A stretch of DNA of 24,623 nucleotides from a virus. The stretch covers positions 1 through 24,623 of IMG/VR virus record IMGVR_UViG_3300039159_000817; one strand, written 5' to 3'. The notes beneath the pieces are model-generated. The model made no database searches and was not told the origin of the DNA. It saw nothing but the letters and a program-made list of their open reading frames with translations. Of this stretch, positions 4,936-19,180 are shown piece after piece; positions within the stretch are counted from its first letter, which is position 1, and each line of letters opens with the position of its first letter. The position numbers and the translations under genes are program-made.

Positions 4936-5151
4936 TCACAGCCCCTTGCTGGTGATCACGCGCACCTGCCGGATGATCTTGCGACCTTCGGCAGTCGCGA
5001 TCTCGCGGTCCAACACTTCGATGGCCCGGTCAATTTCGGCGATGCTGCGGTAATCCACGGTCTTGCCGTCGTAGCTCACGCGGGCCACACCGCTGGAGCG
5101 CTGCGCTGCCAAGGCATCGCGGCGAGTCTTCAGCTCTGCAGTTGTCGGCAT
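4936..5151 (-). CDS. gpW-like head-tail joining protein
   Basis: The 71-residue protein resembles the small lambda gpW-type proteins (68 residues in lambda) that plug the portal after packaging. It opens with a helical segment (TTAELKTRRDALAAQRSSG), has a short beta hairpin (ARVSYDGKTVDYRS, about 23-36), and then a second helix (AEIDRAIEVLDREIATAEG). This helix-hairpin-helix layout is typical of gpW. Its place just before the portal gene also fits. No convincing ribosome site precedes the ATG at 5151, and the neighbouring 52 bp separate it from a divergent plus-strand gene. Its natural upstream partner, the terminase large subunit, is displaced by that plus-strand cassette, so transcription presumably reads through from 6078. 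Confidence 0.82.
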   Translation of the reverse strand: MPTTAELKTRRDALAAQRSSGVARVSYDGKTVDYRSIAEIDRAIEVLDREIATAEGRKIIRQVRVITSKGL

Positions 5152-5203
5152 GGGGTTTTATCCGTTAGGTTTGGGGTGCCGCCGCAGGAAAACAACACCA
5201 GTC

Positions 5204-5818
5204 ATGAACGAACCCGTTGTCCGCATCCGCATTGAACTTGAAGGGACCGACCCGCAGGTCTGGCGCTTGGTCGATGTGCCTTTGTCTTCCACTCTGATGG
5301 CGTTGCACGACATCATTCAGGTCGCGATGCGCTGGCAGGGCGCGCATATGTTCGAATTTGTCGTCGGCGACCAAGTCTATGGCGAGCCTTATCCCGACGA
5401 CAGCGCCTGGGACCGCAAGGTGTTGCAAGCGAAGAGCATCCGCCTCAAGACGCTGGTCGAGCGCAGGGTTGATCGCTTCCTTTACGTCTACGATTTCGGC
5501 GACAACTGGCGGCATCACATCATTCTGGACAGCGTCCGGCAGGGTGAAGACCACACTGACTACCCGGCCTTCGTCGGCGGAGCCCGCCGCGCACCGCCCG
5601 ACGATGTCGGCGGCATCAGCGGTTTCGAGGCGTTTCTGGAAGCCGTGACCGATCCCCGGCATGAGGATCACGACCAGATGCTCGAATGGAGTGATGGGTC
5701 CTTCGATCCCGAAGATATCGATGAGCGCGATATCCGCATGATCGTCGGAAACTTTGCCGCCCGCCGTCGCGGCCCACTGATGAGCCATCGTCGCTCCGGC
5801 CGTTCAAAGCAGCAATGA
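5204..5818 (+). CDS. plasmid pRiA4b ORF-3-like family protein
   Basis: The 204-residue product has the signature of the pRiA4b ORF-3 / IS1096 TnpR-like family: an N-terminal RIRIELEGTDPQVWRLVDVP (about 6-25) and a helix MALHDIIQVAMRWQGAHMFEF (about 31-51). It also has YVYDFGDNWRHHIILDS (about 93-109) and a C-terminal acidic FDPEDIDERDIRMI segment. The biochemical role of this family is not established; members travel on plasmids, insertion elements and prophages. The start at 5204 is chosen because homology-like sequence begins there; upstream codons read MGFYPLGLG and lack family character. It lies antisense inside the late operon and overlaps the following GIY-YIG gene by 4 nt (ATGA), so the two form one unit. 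Ribosome site is weak (AGGAA about 14 bases upstream). Confidence 0.87.
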   Translation: MNEPVVRIRIELEGTDPQVWRLVDVPLSSTLMALHDIIQVAMRWQGAHMFEFVVGDQVYGEPYPDDSAWDRKVLQAKSIRLKTLVERRVDRFLYVYDFGDNWRHHIILDSVRQGEDHTDYPAFVGGARRAPPDDVGGISGFEAFLEAVTDPRHEDHDQMLEWSDGSFDPEDIDERDIRMIVGNFAARRRGPLMSHRRSGRSKQQ

Positions 5819-6090
5819 CCGGGTTCGTCTATGTCCTCGGCTGTGATGCCCCGGATGGCTATCGCACCTATGTCGGCTGGACCATCGATCTCGACCGCCG
5901 CCTAACCCAGCACAATTCGGGCACCGGTGCAAAGTCGACACGCGGCCGAGCTTGGTGCCTGATCTATGCCGAGCGCCTGCCATCGCGAACGGATGCCATG
6001 AGCCGCGAGTGGTACTTGAAGCGCGACCGTCCCTTGCGCCGACAATTGGCCCTGTCGGCGCAAGGCCATGCTTCTGATCACCGCATGTAA
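5815..6090 (+). CDS. GIY-YIG nuclease, UPF0213-like
   Basis: The 91-residue protein is a single-domain GIY-YIG nuclease of the UPF0213/YhbQ type. The diagnostic order is visible: FVYVLGC (4-10, the GIY-equivalent strand), TYVGWT (18-23, the YIG-equivalent), DLDRRLTQHNSGTGAKSTRG (25-44) with the catalytic arginine region, and REWYLKRDR (about 63-71) with the likely metal-binding Glu. Standalone members are small DNA endonucleases of poorly known role, and some phage GIY-YIG proteins are homing enzymes. Here there is no separate DNA-binding domain, so homing is not shown. The gene is coupled to the preceding pRiA4b ORF-3-like gene by ATGA. Its end overlaps the convergent end of the terminase gene by 13 bp, so insertion left the terminase C-terminus abutting it. 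Confidence 0.9.
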   Translation: MTGFVYVLGCDAPDGYRTYVGWTIDLDRRLTQHNSGTGAKSTRGRAWCLIYAERLPSRTDAMSREWYLKRDRPLRRQLALSAQGHASDHRM

Positions 6091-8084
6091 TTCGACGCCA
6101 CAGACCTGCGCCGCGCGGGACTGCGCACCGCTCGGATGGATCCCGCTGCGGTCTTGTCATGACCCCCGTCACCGTTGCCATCCCCGGCCACCTGCGTCTC
6201 CAGATCGAGCCAGCGCGCTTCGGACCACCGATCTACGCCGACGATCCAGGCGGCGGCGCGGGCGTAGACCCGGCAGTCCAGCGCCTCGTTGCGCTCGCGC
6301 AGTTTCTGCCATTCTAGTCGGGCGAAACCGCGCTTGGTGCGCACGGTGACCAATTCCTCGGCCACAAGCTGTTTCAGCCATTCGCTATCCACCCAATCCG
6401 GCAGATGCACAGTGCCGGGGGGAAACTGCACGCCCTCGGCCAGTTCCTCCTTGGTGGGGCGCGGCAGGCCAAGATGGCGGTAGGTCTCCGCCTTGAAGGT
6501 GGAAACCGCTACCGTCCAGAGCCGCGCGCCCCGGCGCAGGCGTTTGCCTGCGTCGGTCACATCGACGTAAGTGGGCCCCGACACCGGGGTGGAACGGTTG
6601 AACCCTTCGACACCCTTGACAGGGGCAACCTGCGCCACCCCTTGCCGCCGCGACCAGGCGTAGACGGCCGGAGCCTCATAGCCGGTGTCGATGGCGAGCT
6701 TGGCCAGCCGCAGATGCGCGCCGTTCTGATGGGTCCAGGTCCGGTCCAGAAGCTTTGTCAGCTCAGTCCACGCACTCTGATGGTCGGGTCCGCCGTCGAT
6801 GACGATATGATCGACCAGCCAGCTTGTCCCGCCCCTGCCCCAGGCCCAGACATCCACCTCGATCCGGTCCTTCTGCACATCGGCCCCGGCGGTCAGGAAC
6901 AACCCGCCTGCTGGAACGATGCCCGGCTTCCACGCTTCACGCCGGTCATAGAGCCGCGACCAGTCCGGTGCCTCCCCGGTTTCAACCCAAGTCTCGCCAA
7001 GGATGGTGTTCTTGAACGCCCGGATCGCCTCGTCCGAACCCTGCGCTGCCTCCCATGCCCGCACAATCCGCTCCCAGCTGAGCCAGCCGATCGGCGAGTA
7101 AAGCGCCGAGAGGTGATAGCCGACGGTGCCGGGATCCGCGGCTATAGCGGTCGCGCGCCATTCGCCTGCCTCCAGCATCGCCGTCTTGTGGTGTTCCGCG
7201 ATGGGGCGTTCGCAGCCCTCGCAGTGATATTCGGCCGCCTCGGGCCGCGCCTTTTCCCAGCGCAGCCGCTCGAACTTCAGCCACTGGAACTGGTGGCAAT
7301 GCGGGCATGGCACGAAAAACCGGCGCTGATCGCTGGCATCGTATTCCCGCTCGATCCGGCTCAGCCCCCGGATCGTCGGCGTCGAGACCAGAAACACCTT
7401 GCGCCGGTGGGCAAAGGTCAGCGAACGCGCCTCGGCAAGGCTGACCGGATCGCCTTCCTCGTCGGCCGACGCCGGATAGGCATCGACCTCGTCGAGAAAG
7501 ATGTAGCGCGCCGGGGTGGATCGCAGCCCGACGGCCGAGTTTGCCCCGGTCATGATCAGGATGCCGCCTGCAAACTCCTTGGACAGCATGGTGTTGCCCG
7601 CGTCGCGCGACCGCGCCGGTTTGACCCGTTCGCGCAGGGCTGCACTTTCTTCGATCAACGGGTCGATCCGCTGGCGCGAATTGCGCTTGGCCAGTTCCAC
7701 GGTCGGCTGCACCGCCAGCATCGGGCCCGGCGCCTGGTGGATCGCAAAGCCGATCCAGTTGTTCCCGGCTTCGGTAGCACCAACCTGTGCGGCCTTCATG
7801 AACACGATGCGCTGGACAGCCGAGCTGGGCGACAGCGCATCCATGATTTCGCGCATGTAGGGCGTGCGCGACGTGCGGTAGCGTCCCGGCTCGGCGCTGG
7901 CGCGCGACCCCAGCATCCGGTGCGCATCGGCCCATTGCGATACGGTCAGATCGGCATCGGGCCGGATGCCCCGGCCCCAGGACCGCAGCAGGTCTTCAGC
8001 ACCATCGAAGTCCGAAGGTCCGCCAATGGCATCAGCGAAGGTCGATGCGGACCTCGGCAAGGCTGTCGAGTTGGGCGCGGACAT
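6078..8084 (-). CDS. terL: terminase large subunit (GpA family)
   Basis: The 668-residue protein is the packaging motor and nuclease of the GpA terminase family. An ATPase domain carries a Walker-A-like KAAQVGATEAGNNW (about 98-110) and Walker B YIFLDEVDAY (194-203). A coupling region reads KVFLVSTPTIRGLSRIE. A zinc-ribbon-like CPHC...CEGC pair follows (FVPCPHCHQ, HCEGCERP). The C-terminal nuclease half begins around LTAGADVQKDRIEVDVWAWG, with the metal-binding aspartate, and continues to LAIDTGYEA. Length is close to lambda gpA (641). The start used (8084) gives a 53-nt overlap with the preceding gene; the conserved part begins near residue 40, so a later start is possible. The 3' end overlaps the convergent GIY-YIG gene by 13 bp. 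Confidence 0.95.
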   Translation of the reverse strand: MSAPNSTALPRSASTFADAIGGPSDFDGAEDLLRSWGRGIRPDADLTVSQWADAHRMLGSRASAEPGRYRTSRTPYMREIMDALSPSSAVQRIVFMKAAQVGATEAGNNWIGFAIHQAPGPMLAVQPTVELAKRNSRQRIDPLIEESAALRERVKPARSRDAGNTMLSKEFAGGILIMTGANSAVGLRSTPARYIFLDEVDAYPASADEEGDPVSLAEARSLTFAHRRKVFLVSTPTIRGLSRIEREYDASDQRRFFVPCPHCHQFQWLKFERLRWEKARPEAAEYHCEGCERPIAEHHKTAMLEAGEWRATAIAADPGTVGYHLSALYSPIGWLSWERIVRAWEAAQGSDEAIRAFKNTILGETWVETGEAPDWSRLYDRREAWKPGIVPAGGLFLTAGADVQKDRIEVDVWAWGRGGTSWLVDHIVIDGGPDHQSAWTELTKLLDRTWTHQNGAHLRLAKLAIDTGYEAPAVYAWSRRQGVAQVAPVKGVEGFNRSTPVSGPTYVDVTDAGKRLRRGARLWTVAVSTFKAETYRHLGLPRPTKEELAEGVQFPPGTVHLPDWVDSEWLKQLVAEELVTVRTKRGFARLEWQKLRERNEALDCRVYARAAAWIVGVDRWSEARWLDLETQVAGDGNGDGGHDKTAAGSIRAVRSPARRRSVASNYMR

Positions 8085-8634
8085 GGGCTTCCAGAACCTT
8101 CTGCATCATGGCGGGCTCCAGCACTCCGTGATCTGCGATCATCACCCCCAGTTCCGATGCCATCAGCGCTGCGGCCCGCGCGGGCCAGGTCACCCAAGCA
8201 TCGCGCTCCTCCCGCGCCAGTCGGAACACCAGCCCCACCGCGCGATTGCGGTCGATCAACTCGGCCTTCAATTGGGCGAGCTTCAGCTTGCGCTCCTGCG
8301 CCTTCAGCACCTCGTTGGCGGTCCTGGCCTGCAGGAAGGTGGTGCCACCGCCGCTGACCGGGGCGGGTAATCCTTCCTCGCGCAGCGTCTCGCCCACGGC
8401 CGATAGCGCGGTATCCGGCACAGGCTTCAGCTTGGGTGCCGGTGACAGTGCATTTCTCGCCTCGCCCCGTTGCTTGGCGGGGTCCGTCATCGCAGCCCGT
8501 CGCGCGTCAGAGGCTACGGCATCAATCGATCCATCGGCGTGTTGAACCAGCCGCCCAGTCTCCTTGGCCTTCTGGATGGCACCCCGCGACAGGCCGACAT
8601 GGGCGGCATATTGGCGCTCGCTCATCCCCTGCAT
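8032..8634 (-). CDS. putative terminase small subunit (Nu1/DUF1441-like)
   Basis: The 200-residue product has an N-terminal helix-turn-helix (SERQYAAHVGLSRGAIQKAK, about 5-24, followed by ETGRLV). That is the layout of Nu1-type small terminase subunits, which recognise the packaging site. A low-complexity linker follows (about 45-110), then a charged, probably coiled-coil stretch VLKAQERKLKLAQLKAELID and a helical C-terminal domain. It sits directly upstream of the large subunit and overlaps it by 53 nt. The ATG at 8634 is chosen because the helix-turn-helix begins immediately after; in-frame codons further upstream run into the divergent promoter region. A second ATG at 8625 is possible. Function is inferred from the fold and position. 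Confidence 0.82.
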   Translation of the reverse strand: MQGMSERQYAAHVGLSRGAIQKAKETGRLVQHADGSIDAVASDARRAAMTDPAKQRGEARNALSPAPKLKPVPDTALSAVGETLREEGLPAPVSGGGTTFLQARTANEVLKAQERKLKLAQLKAELIDRNRAVGLVFRLAREERDAWVTWPARAAALMASELGVMIADHGVLEPAMMQKVLEAHVRAQLDSLAEVRIDLR

Positions 8635-8747
8635 ATCTCGCCCCGCACCCTTGATAAAGCAATGATATTGCTTGGAAAAGAGTTGATTACACTCTGCAAT
8701 GGAGCGATTCTCGGAACAGGAAATCACCCCTGATCGGAGACCGGATC
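8635..8747. promoter_or_regulatory. divergent control region of late operon and plus-strand cassette
   Basis: This 113-bp gap separates the minus-strand terminase genes from the plus-strand accessory cassette, so both promoters should lie here. It is AT-richer than its surroundings. It holds a perfect dyad AAGCAAT-GAT-ATTGCTT (8657-8673) and a second inverted repeat AGAGT-7 nt-ACTCT (8679-8695). A GGAGA ribosome site (8736-8740) serves the plus-strand gene. I could not identify a convincing sigma-70 pair in either direction. A related 20-bp box (16 of 20 identical to 8656-8675) recurs at 9879-9898 in front of another cassette gene. Confidence 0.55.
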
Positions 8748-10814: not shown

Positions 10815-10861
10815 TCGACGCGCATCGAAACAGGTGCTATATTCGCACCGAATTCGATGCG
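10815..10861 (+). promoter_or_regulatory. promoter with nested dyads, toxin-antitoxin operator
   Basis: A sigma-70-like pair is visible: TCGACG (10815-10820), 17 nt, TATATT (10838-10843). The -10 lies in the centre of two concentric inverted repeats. The outer arms are CGCATCGAA (10821-10829) and TTCGATGCG (10853-10861); the inner arms are GGTGC (10833-10837) and GCACC (10845-10849). Both share the centre at 10841. This is the expected layout for autorepression by a Phd/YefM antitoxin dimer. A GGGAGG ribosome site follows just before the ATG at 10878. Confidence 0.7.
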
Positions 10862-10877
10862 CGCCGGGAGGCCAGCC

Positions 10878-11153
10878 ATGAACATCACCAAGGACATCAC
10901 CCCGCTGACCGAGTTCAAGCGGGACTCGGCGCGTTTGATCGCGCACATCAAGGAAACCGGTCGGCCGCAGATCCTGACCGTGAACGGCAAGCCGTCGGTC
11001 GTCGTGATGGACGCCGCCGCTTGGCAGGAGATGCAGGACCAGCTCGACTATGCCGAGACCGTCGCCGGGATCCGCAAGGGATTGACGCAGGCCCGTGCCG
11101 GGGAAGGCACCGAGGCGGGCACGTTCTTCGACGGCCTTGCCCAGACGAAATGA
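10878..11153 (+). CDS. type II antitoxin, Phd/YefM family
   Basis: The 91-residue protein is a Phd/YefM-type antitoxin that neutralises the downstream toxin and autoregulates the operon. The DNA-binding N-terminal domain is recognisable: ITKDITPLTEFKRDSARLIA (3-22), then HIKETGRPQILTVNGKPSVV and VMDAAAWQEM (about 23-52). The C-terminal tail (about 55-91) is helical then Gly/Ala-rich, as expected for the toxin-wrapping region. The start at 10878 is preferred over an in-frame ATG at 10857 because GGGAGG lies 7-12 bases upstream and the family begins here. The stop overlaps the toxin start by 4 nt (ATGA). Nested operator dyads lie upstream. Confidence 0.94.
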   Translation: MNITKDITPLTEFKRDSARLIAHIKETGRPQILTVNGKPSVVVMDAAAWQEMQDQLDYAETVAGIRKGLTQARAGEGTEAGTFFDGLAQTK

Positions 11154-11461
11154 CCACCCGTTTGCCCGTGATCATCACGCCGAACGCGGCGGATGATCTG
11201 ACAGCGTCGTGGGTCTGGCTGCGCGAACGCAACCCGAGGGCTGCGGACGAATGGCTGGCTGGCATCCGGGAAACCATACTTGGTCTTGGAACGCTGCCAG
11301 ACGCTCATCCGATTGCCCCGGAGTCGCAGGATTTCGACCTCCCAATCCGTCGTGCGCTTTATGGCAAGGCAACTCGCTGGTGCATCTACTACGCCGTCAT
11401 CGACGAGGCAGTGCTGGTTCTGCATGTCCGCCATGGTCGCCGGAGCGACTGGAAACCATGA
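11150..11461 (+). CDS. type II toxin, ParE/RelE superfamily
   Basis: The 103-residue protein has the RelE/ParE toxin pattern. There is an N-terminal strand VIITPNAADDL (7-17), a long helical hairpin TASWVWLRERNPRAADEWLA and GIRETILGLGTLP (18-50), and the beta core IRRALYGKATRWCIYYAVID and VLVLHVRHGRRSDW ending the protein. Basic residues in the last strand (VRHGRR) match the active or partner-binding surface of the family. Whether the target is gyrase (ParE) or ribosome-bound mRNA (RelE) cannot be decided by eye. It is coupled to the antitoxin by ATGA. The pair may stabilise the prophage or abort superinfection. Confidence 0.94.
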   Translation: MTTRLPVIITPNAADDLTASWVWLRERNPRAADEWLAGIRETILGLGTLPDAHPIAPESQDFDLPIRRALYGKATRWCIYYAVIDEAVLVLHVRHGRRSDWKP

Positions 11462-12182: not shown

Positions 12183-13381
12183 GCTGGCGCCCCGTCATCC
12201 ATCGGCCAGCAATTCAGCCGCGAGAGTTCGGAGCGCATGCGCTGCAACCAAGGGGACCACGCCGTTGCCACAGAGGCGAAGCCGGTCCACCCGGTGGGCC
12301 AGCCCATCAGCACCTCGACGAACAGCGGGTTCAAGGTCCGGCGCACATCGCAGGTATCGCTCCCAACTGTCGGCGTCACCAGGACTTGGCGGCCAAGCAG
12401 CCCGTTGACCGGCGTATTCGCCAATGTCGTCGCGCCATCCTTGTGGTCCCGCGCCGTCGGCGTCATCCACATCCCCGCCACATGGGTCAGGTCGGCCGTC
12501 TTGCGGTTGCCCGCGCTCGGCTTGCATCCATCGTTCGCCATCGGCGTCGGCCAATCGCGCGCCAGACGGTCCAGACCCTTCTCGTCGCGCCGCTCGCCAC
12601 CCCGACTGCGGAAACTGTCGGTCTGCGGCGTCGGCCACATCGCGGCCGTCGTCGCGAGGTTCATCCCGTGCTGGCCCGCTTCCTGCGAAGGGGTCCGCTT
12701 TGTCTGCCGGTTCTCGTTCGCGCTGGCACGAGGCGTCGGCCACAGCCGCATCATTTCCGTCCTGTTCCCGCCACTCGACCGGGTCCCAGAGCAGGCGCGC
12801 GGGGTCGGCCAAGTCGTTGCCCTCCCGGATGGCGAGGATGAAGAGCCGTTCGCGCCGATGGGGTGCGCCGACTTCCGCCGCCGTAAAGAGGCCTGCCGCG
12901 ATGCGGTAGCCCATGCCGACCAATCCTGCGGCGACTTCGGGGAATCCGAGGCGGAGATGATGGGCGACATTCTCGAGGAAGACAAAGGGCGGCTCGCATT
13001 CACTGATGATCCGGGCGACGTGCGGCCAGAGGTGGCGTGGATCCTCGGTACCGAGGCGCTTGCCCGCGACCGAAAATGGCTGGCATGGATAGCCAGCACT
13101 GATGATATCCACTGCGCCGCGCCACGATCTGCCATCGAAAGTGGCAACGTCGTCCCAGACAACCGCTTGATCCATGGCCGCGTCTTCCATCCGCGCCACG
13201 AGAGTGGCTGCGGCGAAGGTTTCCCGTTCGACATAGCCCACAGCACGATATCCGGGGATGGCGATGGTGAGCCCGAGGTCGAGCCCGCCAGCGCCGGAGC
13301 AAAGGGAGAGGCCGAAGAGGCATGCGTCTGCGGTTCCGGAAGCGCGTCCGGAGGAAGGTAAAGCCAGGTCATGCATGTCAC
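12179..13381 (-). other. overlapping open frame with WPTP repeats (second coding frame in the dcm gene)
   Basis: This frame (+1 relative to the methylase frame) is open for 400 codons from a GTG at 13381 to a TGA at 12179. Codons 1-190 look like shadow. From codon 191 (12811) onward it carries WPTP-type repeats: WPTPRA, LWPTPRASA, MWPTPQTDSFRSRGGE, DWPTPMAND, WMTPTARDHKDG. It ends with LNPLFVEVLMGWPTGWTGF. I recall WPTP repeats and a final LNPxxVExLMGxPxGWT as the C-terminal half of many phage cytosine methylases; the last resembles motif IX. By hand count over 12637-12257, 20 of 127 codons here end in A/T, against 52 of 127 in the methylase frame. Both ends show 4-nt couplings: GTGA with the upstream stop and ATGA with the gene at 12182. 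It could be a separate protein (internal ATGs at 12754 and 12751), a frameshift product, or dual coding. Confidence 0.5.
12195..13376 (-). CDS. dcm: DNA cytosine-C5 methyltransferase
   Basis: This 393-residue frame encodes a cytosine-C5 DNA methylase using S-adenosylmethionine. Visible motifs are motif I FGLSLCSGAGGLDLG (21-35), motif IV SAGYPCQPFSVAGKR (93-107) with nucleophile Cys98, motif VI FLENVAHH (133-140), motif VIII GAPHRRERLF (170-179) and a motif X-like RLRLCGNGVVPLVAA near the C-terminus. Residues 187-330, where the target-recognition domain should be, are low-complexity with repeated ADA segments. Over that region a second frame is open and has stronger coding bias (see next entry). 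The start ATG is 1 bp after the methylase stop at 13378. No restriction enzyme gene lies nearby, so protection of phage DNA from host restriction is the likely role; that is inference. Confidence 0.92.
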   Translation of the reverse strand: MHDLALPSSGRASGTADACLFGLSLCSGAGGLDLGLTIAIPGYRAVGYVERETFAAATLVARMEDAAMDQAVVWDDVATFDGRSWRGAVDIISAGYPCQPFSVAGKRLGTEDPRHLWPHVARIISECEPPFVFLENVAHHLRLGFPEVAAGLVGMGYRIAAGLFTAAEVGAPHRRERLFILAIREGNDLADPARLLWDPVEWREQDGNDAAVADASCQREREPADKADPFAGSGPARDEPRDDGRDVADAADRQFPQSGWRAARREGSGPSGARLADADGERWMQAERGQPQDGRPDPCGGDVDDADGAGPQGWRDDIGEYAGQRAAWPPSPGDADSWERYLRCAPDLEPAVRRGADGLAHRVDRLRLCGNGVVPLVAAHALRTLAAELLADG

Positions 13382-14721
13382 GCGGCGGCTTCGGGTTGGG
13401 TTTCAGGCGCAGCCGGGGCGGCGTCGCCCAGCCGTTCAGCTTTCACGGCCGCGAAGGTCCGGCCATCGCCGTCGAGGATTGCGTCCCGACCGGTGTAGGC
13501 CTGCCAGCGTTCGACGGCCACATCGATGTAGGCCGGGCTGATTTCCATTGCGAAGACACGGCGGCCATTGGCCTCGCCCGCCATGATTTGCGATCCCGAG
13601 CCACAGAACGGCTCGTAACAGAGCCCACCCCGTGCCACATGCTGGCGCATTGGGATACCAAAAGCATCCAGCGGCTTGGGCGTCGGATGGTCCGGACGGT
13701 CATCCTTTGCGAAACTGGGCAGCGCCCATGTCGATGGTAGGGTTTCCTCGGCCACCTTCGGCGGGCGGTTCGGACGGCGCCAGCCCATGAAGCAGGGCTC
13801 GTGCTTCCAGAGGTAATGCGACCGGGTCAGAACCCCGCGGTCCTTCACCCAGATGATCTGCTGGTGCACGAAGGCCCCGGCCTTTTCCCAGCAGGCCTCG
13901 AGCATTGCCTGGCGACGGGACGCGTGCCAGCAATACCAAGCAGCGTTCTCGGCGATCGCTTCCGCCACAGCGGCTGCGATGAAGCCATCGTAAAGTTCAG
14001 CCCCCTGCGAACTGTCATCCCAGGTCGTGCCATAGGACGCCGACCAGTCCTTGTTACGCGTCGGGTGGTTCGAGCCGTCGTAGTCCACGAGATACGGCGG
14101 GTCGGTCGCAAACAGGATCGCCCGCTCACCATTCATCAGACGGCGTACGTCGACCGCGCTGGTGCTATCACCGCACAGCAACCGGTGGTCACCAAGGATC
14201 CACAAATCGCCTGTCCGCGAAGCAGGGTTGCGCGGCGGTTCGGGGATGATCACCGGTGGCACAGAGCCACCGGCGCCACCTTCTTGCCCGTCCCCTTCCG
14301 GCACGTAGGCCAGCAGCTTGTCCAACTCGCCGTCGGAGAAGCCGACCAGCGACAGGTCGAAGTCCTCGGCCAGAAGATCGTTCAGTTCCGCCGACAGCAG
14401 CGCCTCATCCCATGTCCCGAGTTCGGTCAATTTGTTGTCGGCGATGCGATAGGCCCGGCGCTGCGCCTCGGTCAGATGCCCAAGCACGATCACCGGCGCT
14501 TCGGTCAGCCCCAGCTGCGTGGCCGCCAGCACCCGGCCATGGCCCGCGATCAGCTCGCCGTCCTCGGCCACGAGGCAAGGCACGGTCCACCCGAACTCGG
14601 CCATGCTGGCGGCGATCTTCGCGACCTGATCCGCGCCATGCGCCTTCGCATTGCGGGCATAAGGCTGCAGGCGCGCGAGCGACCATTGCTCGATGCGCTC
14701 CGGGGCGAAGCTGAGGGTCAT
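13378..14721 (-). CDS. ParB-domain DNA methyltransferase (beta-class N6-adenine or N4-cytosine)
   Basis: The 447-residue protein joins two domains. Residues 10-130 form a ParB/Srx-type domain, with LIAGHGRVLAATQLG (57-71) and AYRIADNKLTELGTWDEALL (90-109), as in many phage ParB-methylase fusions. Residues 170-430 form an amino-methyltransferase with DPPY (207-210, catalytic motif IV) preceding FCGSG (372-376, SAM-binding motif I), the beta-class order. HPTPKPLDAF (345-354) lies between them. The target sequence cannot be read by eye. Ribosome site AGGA (14730-14733) fits the ATG at 14721. Upstream lies a 469-bp hairpin-rich gap, so this gene may have its own promoter and head a methylase sub-operon with the cytosine methylase. 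It is likely to protect phage DNA from host nucleases or to influence expression. Confidence 0.93.
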   Translation of the reverse strand: MTLSFAPERIEQWSLARLQPYARNAKAHGADQVAKIAASMAEFGWTVPCLVAEDGELIAGHGRVLAATQLGLTEAPVIVLGHLTEAQRRAYRIADNKLTELGTWDEALLSAELNDLLAEDFDLSLVGFSDGELDKLLAYVPEGDGQEGGAGGSVPPVIIPEPPRNPASRTGDLWILGDHRLLCGDSTSAVDVRRLMNGERAILFATDPPYLVDYDGSNHPTRNKDWSASYGTTWDDSSQGAELYDGFIAAAVAEAIAENAAWYCWHASRRQAMLEACWEKAGAFVHQQIIWVKDRGVLTRSHYLWKHEPCFMGWRRPNRPPKVAEETLPSTWALPSFAKDDRPDHPTPKPLDAFGIPMRQHVARGGLCYEPFCGSGSQIMAGEANGRRVFAMEISPAYIDVAVERWQAYTGRDAILDGDGRTFAAVKAERLGDAAPAAPETQPEAAA

Positions 14722-15619: not shown

Positions 15620-15822
15620 CGTTGCACCTCCCGCCCACTCATTGCCGTGCCGTAGAGTTTCTCGCCAAGCTGACGCACCAACTCCCGTTCCGGCCAGGTC
15701 AGACGGTGATCGTCGATGGCGACAGCCAGCAAGCCCTGTTCCCGCCAGCCGTCGCGCTTGACCTCGTCGGGATTGCGGCGATGGCCACCATAGCCTTTCG
15801 GCATGAAACGCATCCCGGTCAT
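15616..15822 (-). CDS. small basic protein of unknown function
   Basis: The 68-residue product is not recognised as a named family. It is basic and begins TGMRFMPKGYGGHRRNPDEV, followed by KRDGWREQGLLAVAIDDHRL. A helical C-terminal part reads TWPERELVRQLGEKLYG. The WPERELVRQLGEKLYG end resembles small phage proteins that follow RuvC-like genes. It overlaps the resolvase stop by ATGA and the DUF6362 start by ATGA, so it is embedded in a coupled trio. No membrane segment or Cys motif. Confidence 0.8.
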   Translation of the reverse strand: MTGMRFMPKGYGGHRRNPDEVKRDGWREQGLLAVAIDDHRLTWPERELVRQLGEKLYGTAMSGREVQR

Positions 15823-16358
15823 TGCAAGCCCCCCTTGGTCTCGAGCGCCCAGAACAGGATCGCGATGGCATCGGCCTCATTGTCGTCGGCGGGGCTGAAG
15901 CCACGGGCCCGGGCGGCGGCAATCATCGCATCCTTGTCGGCATTGCCCTTGCCGGTGGCGTGGCGCTTGATGGTGCCCACCGGGACGCCCTCGTAAGGCA
16001 CGCCGCGCAATTCGGCCCAAGCGGTCAGCGTGGCCATGAGGCCGCCGTAGACGTGGGCGGCGTCGGTGCCGGCATGACGACGGACCTCTTCGAACCAGAT
16101 GGCAGCGATGGGTCCGGACAGACGGTCCAACTCGCCCAGCCAGTTGGTGAACCGCAGGTAGCGCATGCCCCCACCATCGAACCGCCCCGGGCGGAAGGAC
16201 ACGGTGCCGCTGGTGATCAGACCATCGGCGCCATGCAGGGCCCAGCCAGTGGTGGTGCCGAGATCGAGCGCCAGGATGGTGCGTTGGCCCTGCGCTGGCA
16301 GAATAAGCGTTTTCTGGGTTGCGCCAAGATTGGCGTTGGCGAGAGTCGTATCAGCCAT
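15819..16358 (-). CDS. RuvC-like Holliday-junction resolvase
   Basis: The 179-residue protein has the RNase H-fold resolvase pattern of RuvC: TILALDLGTTTGWAL (27-41) with the first catalytic Asp32, IAAIWFEEVRRHAG (84-97) with Glu90/91, a basic VPVGTIKRHATGKGNADKDA (125-144), and FSPADDNEADAIAILFW (154-170) with the final acidic pair. Such phage enzymes cut branched DNA before packaging or during recombination. The start at 16358 is set by AGGAG at 16366-16370. The same frame stays open back to 16772 through a repeat array, but that part has no family similarity. It is the first gene after the array and is coupled to the next gene by ATGA. Confidence 0.9.
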   Translation of the reverse strand: MADTTLANANLGATQKTLILPAQGQRTILALDLGTTTGWALHGADGLITSGTVSFRPGRFDGGGMRYLRFTNWLGELDRLSGPIAAIWFEEVRRHAGTDAAHVYGGLMATLTAWAELRGVPYEGVPVGTIKRHATGKGNADKDAMIAAARARGFSPADDNEADAIAILFWALETKGGLQ

Positions 16359-16480
16359 GAGTGGTCTCCTCTTCTGGTTGGCTGCTCGGGTGGAAGACGA
16401 CGGTGGTTGATGCTTGCCGGTACCGGCCGCCGTCGTCGGATTGATCTCGGCCCACAACTTCGGCCCGAGAAGATTGCCCA

Positions 16481-16537
16481 GGGGTGGGTGGTGGACCTCC
16501 CACCTTGCGGGGGAGTCCACCCACCCCTTTAGGGGTG
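16481..16537. other. two competing hairpins upstream of the resolvase gene
   Basis: A long hairpin pairs GGGGTGGGTGG (16481-16491) with CCACCCACCCC (16517-16527), with an inner stem CTCCC/GGGAG (16497-16501, 16511-16515) and a 9-nt loop. A second dyad, CACCCCT-TT-AGGGGTG (16522-16537), uses the same CACCCC arm, so only one of the two can form at once. On the minus-strand transcript this lies between the primase gene and the resolvase. There is no U-tract. Confidence 0.5.
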
Positions 16538-16542
16538 CTATT

Positions 16543-16743
16543 TCCGTGTTCTGCGTTCTGACGTAAGCCATTGAACTTGATGGGAGATTTCCAGAACACG
16601 GATGAGCAAGTGGCAGACCGCAATCCGTGTTCTGCGTTCTGGCGTAACTCATTGGTTTTGTTTCGAGAATTCCAGAACTCAGAACACGGTGACGCAGAAC
16701 ACGGCCTGTGTTCTGGCCAGAACACGGACGATCCGTGTTCTGG
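16543..16743. repeat. array of CCGTGTTCTG boxes (candidate origin or operator)
   Basis: Seven exact copies of CCGTGTTCTG or its complement occur in 200 bp: plus at 16544, 16625 and 16733; minus at 16592, 16680, 16695 and 16718. An eighth with one mismatch is at 16706. Some are paired: GTGTTCTGG-CCAGAACAC (16708-16725) is a perfect 18-bp palindrome. CCAGAACACGGA-CGA-TCCGTGTTCTGG (16717-16743) is a perfect 12-bp dyad. Two copies belong to a longer direct repeat of about 31 bp (starting 16543 and 16624). The array lies between the stop of the primase-helicase gene and the resolvase. Clustered direct and inverted boxes next to replication genes are typical of phage origins and of multi-site operators. 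Confidence 0.75.
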
Positions 16744-16768
16744 AAAAGGCTCTTCTCAGATGCCAAAG

Positions 16769-19180
16769 TCATGCCTCACCCCCGTCCTGATCGACCCAGA
16801 CTTCCGGGTTCTCGACGGGCAAGAGCGCTCCGGATTGGGGGCACATGAAGTCGGACGGGAACACCCGAATGAAGGCCGGGCACACCTCGCCGGTCTCGTC
16901 GTCGACCACTTCGCGGTCGGTGCGAAGTCGCATGTCCCTGACGCAGAGATATCCAAACTTCGACCGGTCCCGCTTGAGGCCCAGTTCTCTGATCTGATCT
17001 CCTCGCACGAACTTCACGTAACCCTTGGTGGCCAGCACGTGCAGGCGATCCCGGATGCTGGTCTGGCCACCGAGACTGCCCTTGTTCTCAAAGCTGGCCG
17101 CGAACTGGCTGAGCGTGAACATCTTCCCCTGTTCAGCCTGCTCACTGATCATATGGACGATCACACCACCCTTTCGGTCTCGTTCCGCATCATGTTTTGC
17201 CCCCACCTCTGCCCGCACCAACCGCTCGTTCATGGGGTTGATTTCGACCCATTCGCCCTTGACCTTGTCGACGATCTTGGGTGCCAGCGCCGGTCCGTTG
17301 CGCAACTCGATCTCCAGCTTGCGCTGCGGGTTGTCCTCATCGGGGCGATGCAAGATCAGCCCGGAGGTGTAGAAGCCGCGCAGTGCGCTTGCCCCGGAAA
17401 GAGCCAGAAACGGGTCATCCTTGACCTGCTGTTTCGAGAGTTTCTTGGTGTGGTGAACGAGGATGACGCCACAGTCCGGGTTAATGTGATCGCGCAGGAC
17501 CTCGACCCGGTCCTTCAGAAAGAACATCATCGCGCCGTTGTCGTTTTCGCCGCCACCGTCGGGACCGCCGTCGAAAAGATTGCGGATCGGATCGATGCAG
17601 ATGATGTCAACGGGCTCAGAAGGAAACGCGGCCCGGATCGCATGGGCGACGCCCACGCTGCCCTCGACATCAAGCAGCATCTTCAGCTTCGGTGTGGCGA
17701 CGAGGTTGTCGCGGGCAGCAGCCAGCAGCTTTGGCGGCAGGGTGATCTGCTGCAGCCGCTCCCGCAGATAATCATACTGGATCTCTGCCTGAAGGTAGAA
17801 GATCCGTAGCGGACGGGGGGGCGCGAAGCCAAGGAAGGGCACGCCCGCCGCCATGTGCACGAGCCAGGAGATCAGCAAATCGCTCTTGCCGATCTTGGGC
17901 GCGCCACCCAGCACCAGCATGCCACCCGGGGTCAGCACGCGCGGCGCGATGATGTCGGCAGGCATGGGGCTCTGGTCGTCAAGCAACGCCCCAAGCGTAA
18001 ATGTGGGCAGTTCGTTTGGCACTGGGGCTGCGCTGTCGAGGCGGATCAGCGGAGGCCCGTGCTTTTCGACATGGATGGCCCAGAGACGTTCGGACTCGCG
18101 CTTGAGCCGCTCCACAGGCCACTGCGGTCGGAGCATCGCGGCGTTATAGCCGCAGATGCCTTCCCAGCCTTCGTCCTTCGACATCCGGCCTTCGTGGACC
18201 ATTCGGATGAAATAACCGATGGCCGCTGAAGCGCCCTCGAAGCGGGACCAGCCATCTTGGCCGCCTTCGCGCACGGGCGTGACGAGGACATCGGCAACAC
18301 CGGGCTTGTCTGACGAAGAGAAGTCGGGCTGCAGGGTGACCCCCGGCGCAGGCGGCATATCAGCCACTGCCTCGATGAATTCGCCCAGATCGCGTTCCAG
18401 CGTCGGGTTTAGCCCCACGATCCGGACCTGTGTCTTCAGGCCGTTCTTGTAATGGACCGAGCCCGCCACCCGGATCGGCTGGTGGGCGGAGCGGAAATGC
18501 ATGTCGCCGTCGACCTTGGCGGCAATGTCACCGCGCAGGCGGCAGAGACGACGGATGTCGTCACCCTCGGCGGGTTCGGTCAGTTTCCACCAGACATGCG
18601 CCTTCCGTTGGCCCTCAGGCGTGACCCCACCGCTTTCCACAACCATGGTGGGCGGGCCAAGGTGACGTTCAAGGTGGGCGCGCTTGGCAGCGATGTCGCC
18701 GCTGTCGATATCCACCACAACGGCCTGCATCTGCAGGATCTCGGCGGCCTTGGCCTGGCCGGGGGCAGCGACAGTGCCTGGGATCACATAGACGGCCGCG
18801 CCCTCGCGCGAGGCCCAAGTGGCGAAGGTGGCCATCTTGTAGGAGACGAACTCGCCCATCTCGATCCAGATGTTATGTGGTCGGCCGTCGATACCCTGCC
18901 CCTTGTCGATGAAACTGCGGACCGGGATCAGCCCGTCGCAGTAGCCAAAGACCACCTGCATGAACTGCGCGATCTGATCAGGGTCCGGCTCGTCGCCGAA
19001 CGGATCGATCTGCGGGGCGGCATCGTTGAAGTCGCGCCACGGATTGAAATGGACGATGTTCTGCAGCGGTGCTGCGGGCGGGAGGGGTGTGTCTTGCGCG
19101 GGTTTCTCGGGTTCGTTGCTCATGATCGTGACCTCGGGCGTGTCGAATGTGTCGGGCGGGTTCTTTGGGGCATCGCTCAT
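16769..19180 (-). CDS. primase-helicase: AEP primase-like domain fused to RepA-type AAA ATPase
   Basis: The 803-residue protein appears to combine priming and unwinding for phage replication. Residues about 70-260 resemble a RepB/AEP-type primase: AVVVDIDSGD (153-162) with the DxD pair Asp157/Asp159, VESGGVTPEGQRKAHVWWKL (181-200), and HQPIRVAGSVHYKNG (233-247). Residues about 410-640 form a RecA-fold ATPase: Walker A LGGAPKIGKSDLL (424-436), Walker B DIICIDPIRN (525-534), then VILVHHTKK (572-580) and LSGASALRGF. The C-terminal part (about 690-760) looks winged-helix-like. The start at 19180 gives an ATGA overlap with the nuclease gene. An alternative ATG at 19123 has a better GAGG ribosome site. 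No phage DNA polymerase gene is visible, so the host replisome is presumably recruited. Confidence 0.9.
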   Translation of the reverse strand: MSDAPKNPPDTFDTPEVTIMSNEPEKPAQDTPLPPAAPLQNIVHFNPWRDFNDAAPQIDPFGDEPDPDQIAQFMQVVFGYCDGLIPVRSFIDKGQGIDGRPHNIWIEMGEFVSYKMATFATWASREGAAVYVIPGTVAAPGQAKAAEILQMQAVVVDIDSGDIAAKRAHLERHLGPPTMVVESGGVTPEGQRKAHVWWKLTEPAEGDDIRRLCRLRGDIAAKVDGDMHFRSAHQPIRVAGSVHYKNGLKTQVRIVGLNPTLERDLGEFIEAVADMPPAPGVTLQPDFSSSDKPGVADVLVTPVREGGQDGWSRFEGASAAIGYFIRMVHEGRMSKDEGWEGICGYNAAMLRPQWPVERLKRESERLWAIHVEKHGPPLIRLDSAAPVPNELPTFTLGALLDDQSPMPADIIAPRVLTPGGMLVLGGAPKIGKSDLLISWLVHMAAGVPFLGFAPPRPLRIFYLQAEIQYDYLRERLQQITLPPKLLAAARDNLVATPKLKMLLDVEGSVGVAHAIRAAFPSEPVDIICIDPIRNLFDGGPDGGGENDNGAMMFFLKDRVEVLRDHINPDCGVILVHHTKKLSKQQVKDDPFLALSGASALRGFYTSGLILHRPDEDNPQRKLEIELRNGPALAPKIVDKVKGEWVEINPMNERLVRAEVGAKHDAERDRKGGVIVHMISEQAEQGKMFTLSQFAASFENKGSLGGQTSIRDRLHVLATKGYVKFVRGDQIRELGLKRDRSKFGYLCVRDMRLRTDREVVDDETGEVCPAFIRVFPSDFMCPQSGALLPVENPEVWVDQDGGEA

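Follow-up and report, generated by a model that had tools for sequence, protein, structure and literature searches.

The window, by which we mean the whole 24,623-base stretch of phage DNA analysed here, carries on its minus strand genes for an HTH protein, a Sak4-like ATPase, a helicase, a Cas4-like exonuclease and a primase-helicase, then a box array and the gene for a RuvC-like resolvase, followed by a DUF6362 protein, methyltransferases and finally the terminase and structural genes. The array does separate the primase-helicase gene from the resolvase gene, as had been proposed from the sequence (Table 1). Elsewhere in the window, a cytosine methyltransferase adjoins a fusion of a ParB domain with an N6-N4 methyltransferase (12195-14721, minus strand; the fusion at 13378-14721), a Phd/YefM antitoxin and ParE toxin pair lies on the plus strand (10857-11461), whereas the majority of the phage genes are on the other strand, and a PRiA4 ORF3-like protein and a GIY-YIG nuclease are inserted between the portal/head genes and the terminase (5150-6090, plus strand).

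Table 1. Coordinates of the array, its boxes and the neighbouring features in the window
Feature	Position	Strand	Remarks
RuvC-like resolvase, 179 aa from MADTTLAN, right neighbour	15819..16358	-	phrog_159, E=2e-30
Hairpin, two exclusive pairings	16481..16537	-	X CACCCC (TAAA) X' GGGGTG - Y..Y' - X'' CACCCC; candidate primase loading site
Box array, 11 boxes	16544..16742	.	minus-strand (coding-strand) word CAGAACACGG
Box 11	16544..16553	-	exact
Box 10, CAGAACGCAG, tandem partner	16551..16560	-	two mismatches; position common to relatives
IHF-consensus-like site 2, GTTCAATGGCTTA	16564..16576	-	two mismatches here, at most one in many relatives; position 193/194 after stop codon
Box 9	16592..16601	+	exact
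Box 8	16625..16634	-	exact
Box 7, CAGAACGCAG, tandem partner	16632..16641	-	two mismatches; position common to relatives
IHF-consensus-like site 1, AACCAATGAGTTA vs WATCAANNNNTTR	16645..16657	-	one mismatch; position 112/113 after stop codon in most relatives
Box 6, CAGAACTCAG, tandem partner 7 bp from box 5	16673..16682	+	two mismatches; position common to relatives
Box 5	16680..16689	+	exact
Box 4	16695..16704	+	exact
Box 3, CAGAACACAG	16706..16715	-	one mismatch
Box 2, CAGAACACGG on +	16718..16727	+	exact
Box 1	16733..16742	-	exact
Primase-helicase, putative initiator, 818 aa	16769..19225	-	Pfam AAA_25, E=9.8e-20 (residues 416-596); PHROG DNA primase/helicase
C-terminal putative specificity domain, residues ~651-818	16772..17275	-	only part of the protein that tracks the word; model pLDDT 78

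The seven exact copies of CCGTGTTCTG and the single-mismatch copy counted in the preliminary description are all present, no further exact copy occurs in the whole record, and both dyads reported there are real (16708-16725, GTGTTCTGG|CCAGAACAC; 16717-16743, CCAGAACACGG-acgat-CCGTGTTCTGG). Three additional copies (boxes 6, 7 and 10) overlap a main box at a distance of 7 bp and keep the CAGAAC core intact, with their two mismatches in the tail, bringing the array to 11 boxes. Dense dyads occupy 16673-16742, and two pairs spaced by about 30 bp follow around the IHF-like sites. Allowing one mismatch, we counted 11 copies of the best 9-mer in 250 bp; 20 shuffles gave 2.1 on average and never more than 3, and a chance origin of this density is excluded. 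Eleven copies of a short word within 199 bp of intergenic DNA, directly after the stop codon of the putative initiator, are the layout expected of an iteron-type origin.

Several other readings of this stretch were tried and rejected. An open frame of 317 codons (15819-16772) runs through the array, its ATG overlapping the primase stop; however, gap lengths of 407-413 in relatives cover all values modulo 3, so the frame is not conserved. Comparison with known RNA families gave only sub-threshold chance matches, and a search for a promoter and an intrinsic terminator at the array found neither. In the alphaproteobacterial LexA box, GTTC repeats are spaced by 7 bases, whereas they are spaced by 3 here, and a LexA operator was therefore rejected.

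The predicted primase-helicase comprises an N-terminal archaeo-eukaryotic primase fold, a central RecA-type helicase resembling RSF1010 RepA (AAA_25) and a winged-helix-like C-terminal domain. The full-length model has moderate confidence (mean pLDDT 63, with residues 1-76 low), and it matches the S-2L PrimPol structure 6zp9 over the N-terminal primase fold (E=5e-9, TM 0.79 over the target) and RSF1010 RepA, 1olo (E=2e-4). The model of the C-terminal domain has a winged-helix-like core at about residues 680-764, with a putative recognition helix at 721-734 whose N-terminus carries GGQTSIR (719-725). Its best matches among solved structures are winged helices, and these matches are weak (Foldseek best E=0.017; VIA-align Z of 6.4 or less), so we take a winged helix as the likely reading of the model only. 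A sequence search of solved structures returned a single weak and irrelevant match. In relatives from Wolbachia phage WO, the matching protein of about 268 aa covers residues 393-659 only and lacks the C-terminal domain.

Scans of viral contigs and of genomes yielded 80 and 58 relatives, respectively, and 101 distinct loci, chiefly from Rhodobacterales but also from other alphaproteobacterial phages and prophages; the remote relatives belong to Acetobacteraceae, Micavibrio and one MAG labelled Nitrospirota. Downstream of the primase stop codon lies a non-coding stretch of about 410 bp, near-constant in length among close relatives. In 90 of the 101 loci it holds an array of a repeated word that exceeds all 20 shuffles, and the mean number of word copies is 7.7 per array compared with 2.6 in a slice of the primase gene. 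The word itself varies: CAGAACACGG, CAAAACACAG, CAAAAACCGG, CAGATTTCGG, CAGATTTGGC, CAGATTCCGG, CAGAATCCGG, CAGGAACTCG, CAGTTTCGG, ATGACAGAG, TGTTCGTCC and more were found. The remaining 11 loci, among them L051, L060, L061 and several from Micavibrio, have no clear repeated word. IHF-like sites and the hairpin are nevertheless present in the gaps of L051, L060, L061, L064 and L109, none with a clear word, and longer or degenerate sites may be in use there. A single genome, that of Aquibium sp. ELW1220, carries three prophage loci (L105, L106 and L113), two with the word CCGAAACTG and one with ATGACAGAG.

When the word changes, it changes in concert, with every copy in one array carrying the same change, and the box positions are base-exact between words. 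Loci with the words CAGAACACGG, CAAAACACAG and CAAAAACCGG have their boxes on the same bases and in the same orientations, at 27, 42, 54, 65, 80, 87, 128, 135, 168, 209 and 216 after the stop codon, and a second set of words has fixed positions of its own (22, 43, 55, 63, 81, 88, 138, 158, 170, 210 and 217). Within two word groups, box columns are 90% and 96% identical, as against 73% and 76% for the spacers. The two IHF-like sites are 81 bp apart and nearly all lie on one strand. Sites matching WATCAANNNNTTR with at most one mismatch occur in 75 of the 101 loci, mostly at 112/113 and 193/194, or 1.20 per array; shuffles have 0.24 and slices of the primase gene 0.13.

The hairpin between the array and the resolvase gene follows the scheme X-(TAA/TAC)-X'-Y...Y'-X'', in which the X' arm can pair with either X or X''. 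This X-loop-X'-...-X'' layout is seen in 76% of gaps, while shuffles show it in 7% and coding slices in 11%; these controls take account of the selection on pairing made during the search. Its stem sequences differ widely among relatives, with the loop, CTAA or CTAC (TAM), mostly kept, and the DNA fold of 16481-16537 has z=-3.3. The hairpin looks like a structural switch. Most relatives also have a conserved repeat, GACGACGGCGG...CCGCCGTCGTC, directly before the RuvC start (16385-16455 here); a second hairpin at this place was rejected, its stability being no better than that of shuffles (z=0.16). In L035, L049, L052 and L081, phages of several word groups, a small extra gene (Cys/His-rich, with an MHEGQRY-type motif) lies between the hairpin and RuvC.

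The word tracks the C-terminal domain alone, and not the primase, the helicase, RuvC or eight other phage genes. With near-identical phages left out, we asked whether the relative closest in a given protein stretch carries a comparable set of repeated 6-mers. Agreement was 61-75% for windows within residues 651-800, compared with 5-19% for windows within residues 21-680, 12-25% for RuvC, 1-21% for the eight other genes and a baseline of 9%. Placed on a tree of the C-terminal domain, the words need no fewer than 17 changes (minimum 15); trees of the N-terminal part and of RuvC need 40 and 39, and shuffled labels about 51. The word groups were obtained by clustering the words, so that the exact numbers vary with the threshold. 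Ranked by how much they tell about the word, the top 30 residue columns all fall within 691-818, and they include positions in the helix-turn-helix and the wing (705, 722, 723, 729, 743-753 and 766-771). Part of this covariation is linkage, as the C-terminal domain and the array are adjacent in the DNA; RuvC, about 0.2 kb beyond the array, serves as an imperfect linkage control.

The preliminary description would count it against its own reading if the box were absent at this locus from close relatives that replicate normally. The word is indeed missing from locus L011, whose phage is up to 97% identical to the studied phage over much of the N-terminal part, but an array of another word is found there, together with a different C-terminal domain, and box absence is therefore misleading as a refutation. 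DNA identity between the two phages is 73-97% upstream in the gene, falls to its lowest values, 44-73%, from about -460 to +240 bp around the stop codon, and reaches 93% again in RuvC, whereas L022, which has the same word as the studied phage, is most alike (86-90%) in precisely that stretch. It follows that the C-terminal domain and the array were exchanged together. The best reading of these data is an exchangeable cassette of about 0.7 kb: phages have traded it many times, and the primase, the helicase and the neighbouring genes stayed. A concern that the box might be common across the host genome was not borne out, as host DNA is not enriched. The box occurs 22 times in the genome of Salinihabitans flavidus, which has a prophage carrying this word; five copies belong to the array and the others are scattered, and other hosts, whose prophages have other words, have a comparable 7-22 copies per genome, likewise scattered; a host-wide site was rejected.

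Between the two functions originally suggested for the array, a replication origin bound by the primase-helicase and a multi-site operator, the comparative data favour the origin, although both binding and origin activity are matters that we infer. We consider it quite probable that the array is an iteron-cluster replication origin, that the primase-helicase encoded upstream is its initiator, and that the C-terminal domain and the array make up an exchangeable cassette; the box is very probably the docking site of the primase-helicase for the start of genome copying. Of 19 loci, 17 show a higher GC skew beyond the array, a small change in loci that are not independent (p=0.018), and the cumulative GC-skew minimum of the 24.6-kb record lies near 16 kb, which together are weak support for an origin. 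An operator array, through which the primase-helicase or another factor would repress or time the resolvase operon or the replication genes, would suit both the position upstream of the RuvC gene and the fact that winged-helix proteins are often regulators. We think it improbable: no sigma-70-like promoter was found in 16340-16900, no other gene tracks the word among the phage genes tested (the small HTH gene, with 7 loci, was left out), the domain that does track it is fused to a primase and a helicase, and eleven boxes with IHF-like sites and a hairpin are more than a usual operator contains.

It could also be argued that recombination simply carries the C-terminal domain and the array together, both being within one exchanged stretch of about 0.7 kb, and that the repeats are not read by the domain. 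However, boxes are kept while spacers diverge (0.90 vs 0.73 in class A), copies change in concert at fixed positions, and the word is not tracked by RuvC, whose distance on the opposite side is similar. Linkage alone is thus very unlikely, and the retention of boxes amid diverged spacers, together with the failure of RuvC to follow, argues for a functional link between reader and array. Iteron-like arrays also serve partition, and the window does encode a ParB-domain methyltransferase (13378-14721). A role in partition, as a centromere-like site, or in packaging, with another phage protein as the binder, was considered as well. We give this reading hardly any weight, since on the same loci word tracking is 0.21 for the ParB-methyltransferase and 0.71 for the C-terminal domain, and the terminase genes (6078-8727) are far from the array.

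On our best reading, replication would begin with the C-terminal winged-helix-like domain binding the 10-bp boxes, and IHF would bend the two gaps of about 30 bp, bringing the paired boxes together. The RepA-like ring would then open the DNA, and the fused archaeo-eukaryotic primase would start on the hairpin once this is single-stranded. Box recognition by the C-terminal domain, initiation at the array, binding of IHF and priming at the hairpin are all steps that we infer from the comparisons above, and their proposed order follows that of RSF1010.

Other systems offer partial likenesses. The alpha protein of satellite phage P4 also joins a primase, a helicase and an iteron-binding, DNA-binding C-terminus in one protein, although its primase is of the Toprim type and its helicase belongs to SF3; we know of no IHF involvement or word switching in P4. 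In the staphylococcal pathogenicity islands, Rep is an initiator helicase whose C-terminal DNA-binding part decides which island origin is used, but its helicase family differs from that of the studied phage. Lambdoid iterons differ in lying inside the O gene, and O is neither primase nor helicase. The likeness to lambdoid O is that iteron variety is paired with initiator variety, different iterons being matched to different initiators in the related phages lambda, P22 and L (PMC8022706). The P4 alpha protein has been compared in PMC4234260, as has ORF904 of pRN1, a primase-helicase-winged helix protein with an origin just downstream of its gene and a stem-loop conserved in form but not in sequence. 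The pRN1 system resembles the one proposed here in protein architecture, in an origin directly after the gene and in a stem-loop kept in form, but it has an SF3 helicase and no iterons.

Further parallels are with RSF1010 and the PrimQH proteins. RSF1010 (IncQ) has RepC, RepA and RepB', iterons and the ssiA/ssiB hairpins. Common to it and the studied phage are iterons with a hairpin close by, a ring helicase of the RepA family and an archaeo-eukaryotic primase; the order of events in RSF1010, with its separate RepC, RepA and RepB' proteins, has been described (PMC4234260, PMC4434180). In contrast, the studied phage has all three functions in one 818-aa polypeptide, its boxes are about 10 bp long, point in either direction and have IHF-like sites among them, and its relatives change the word. 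Since one protein carries all three domains, we suggest that it works like an RSF1010-type replicon without being a member of that group. In its predicted domain layout (AEP, helicase and putative winged helix) the protein is like a PrimQH fusion. The C-terminal winged helix of PrimQH-type phage primase-helicases has been suspected of origin recognition (Kazlauskas 2018, PMC5862659, on PrimQH and related phage and plasmid archaeo-eukaryotic primases); we found no binding sites reported for it, whereas here there are DNA words and their covariation with the protein. No description of the array, the word families or their match to the C-terminal domain was found in the open-access papers searched. 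Each part has a precedent, but the combination and the word switching look new.

We tentatively suggest, as a possibility that we would not yet favour, that the word acts as a fast-evolving "replication identity code", in which one replication engine is kept and a 0.7-kb reader-plus-array cassette is swapped. If so, the code would keep co-resident or co-infecting relatives from firing, titrating or parasitising each other's origins, in the manner of plasmid incompatibility groups. Apart from this suggestion, the word groups, about 16 in number and each paired with a protein variant of its own, provide a natural data set from which a residue-to-base code could be read and tested, and the origins of many uncultured alphaproteobacterial phages would become predictable from sequence alone. 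They also offer a clear example of phages exchanging replication specificity as a module.
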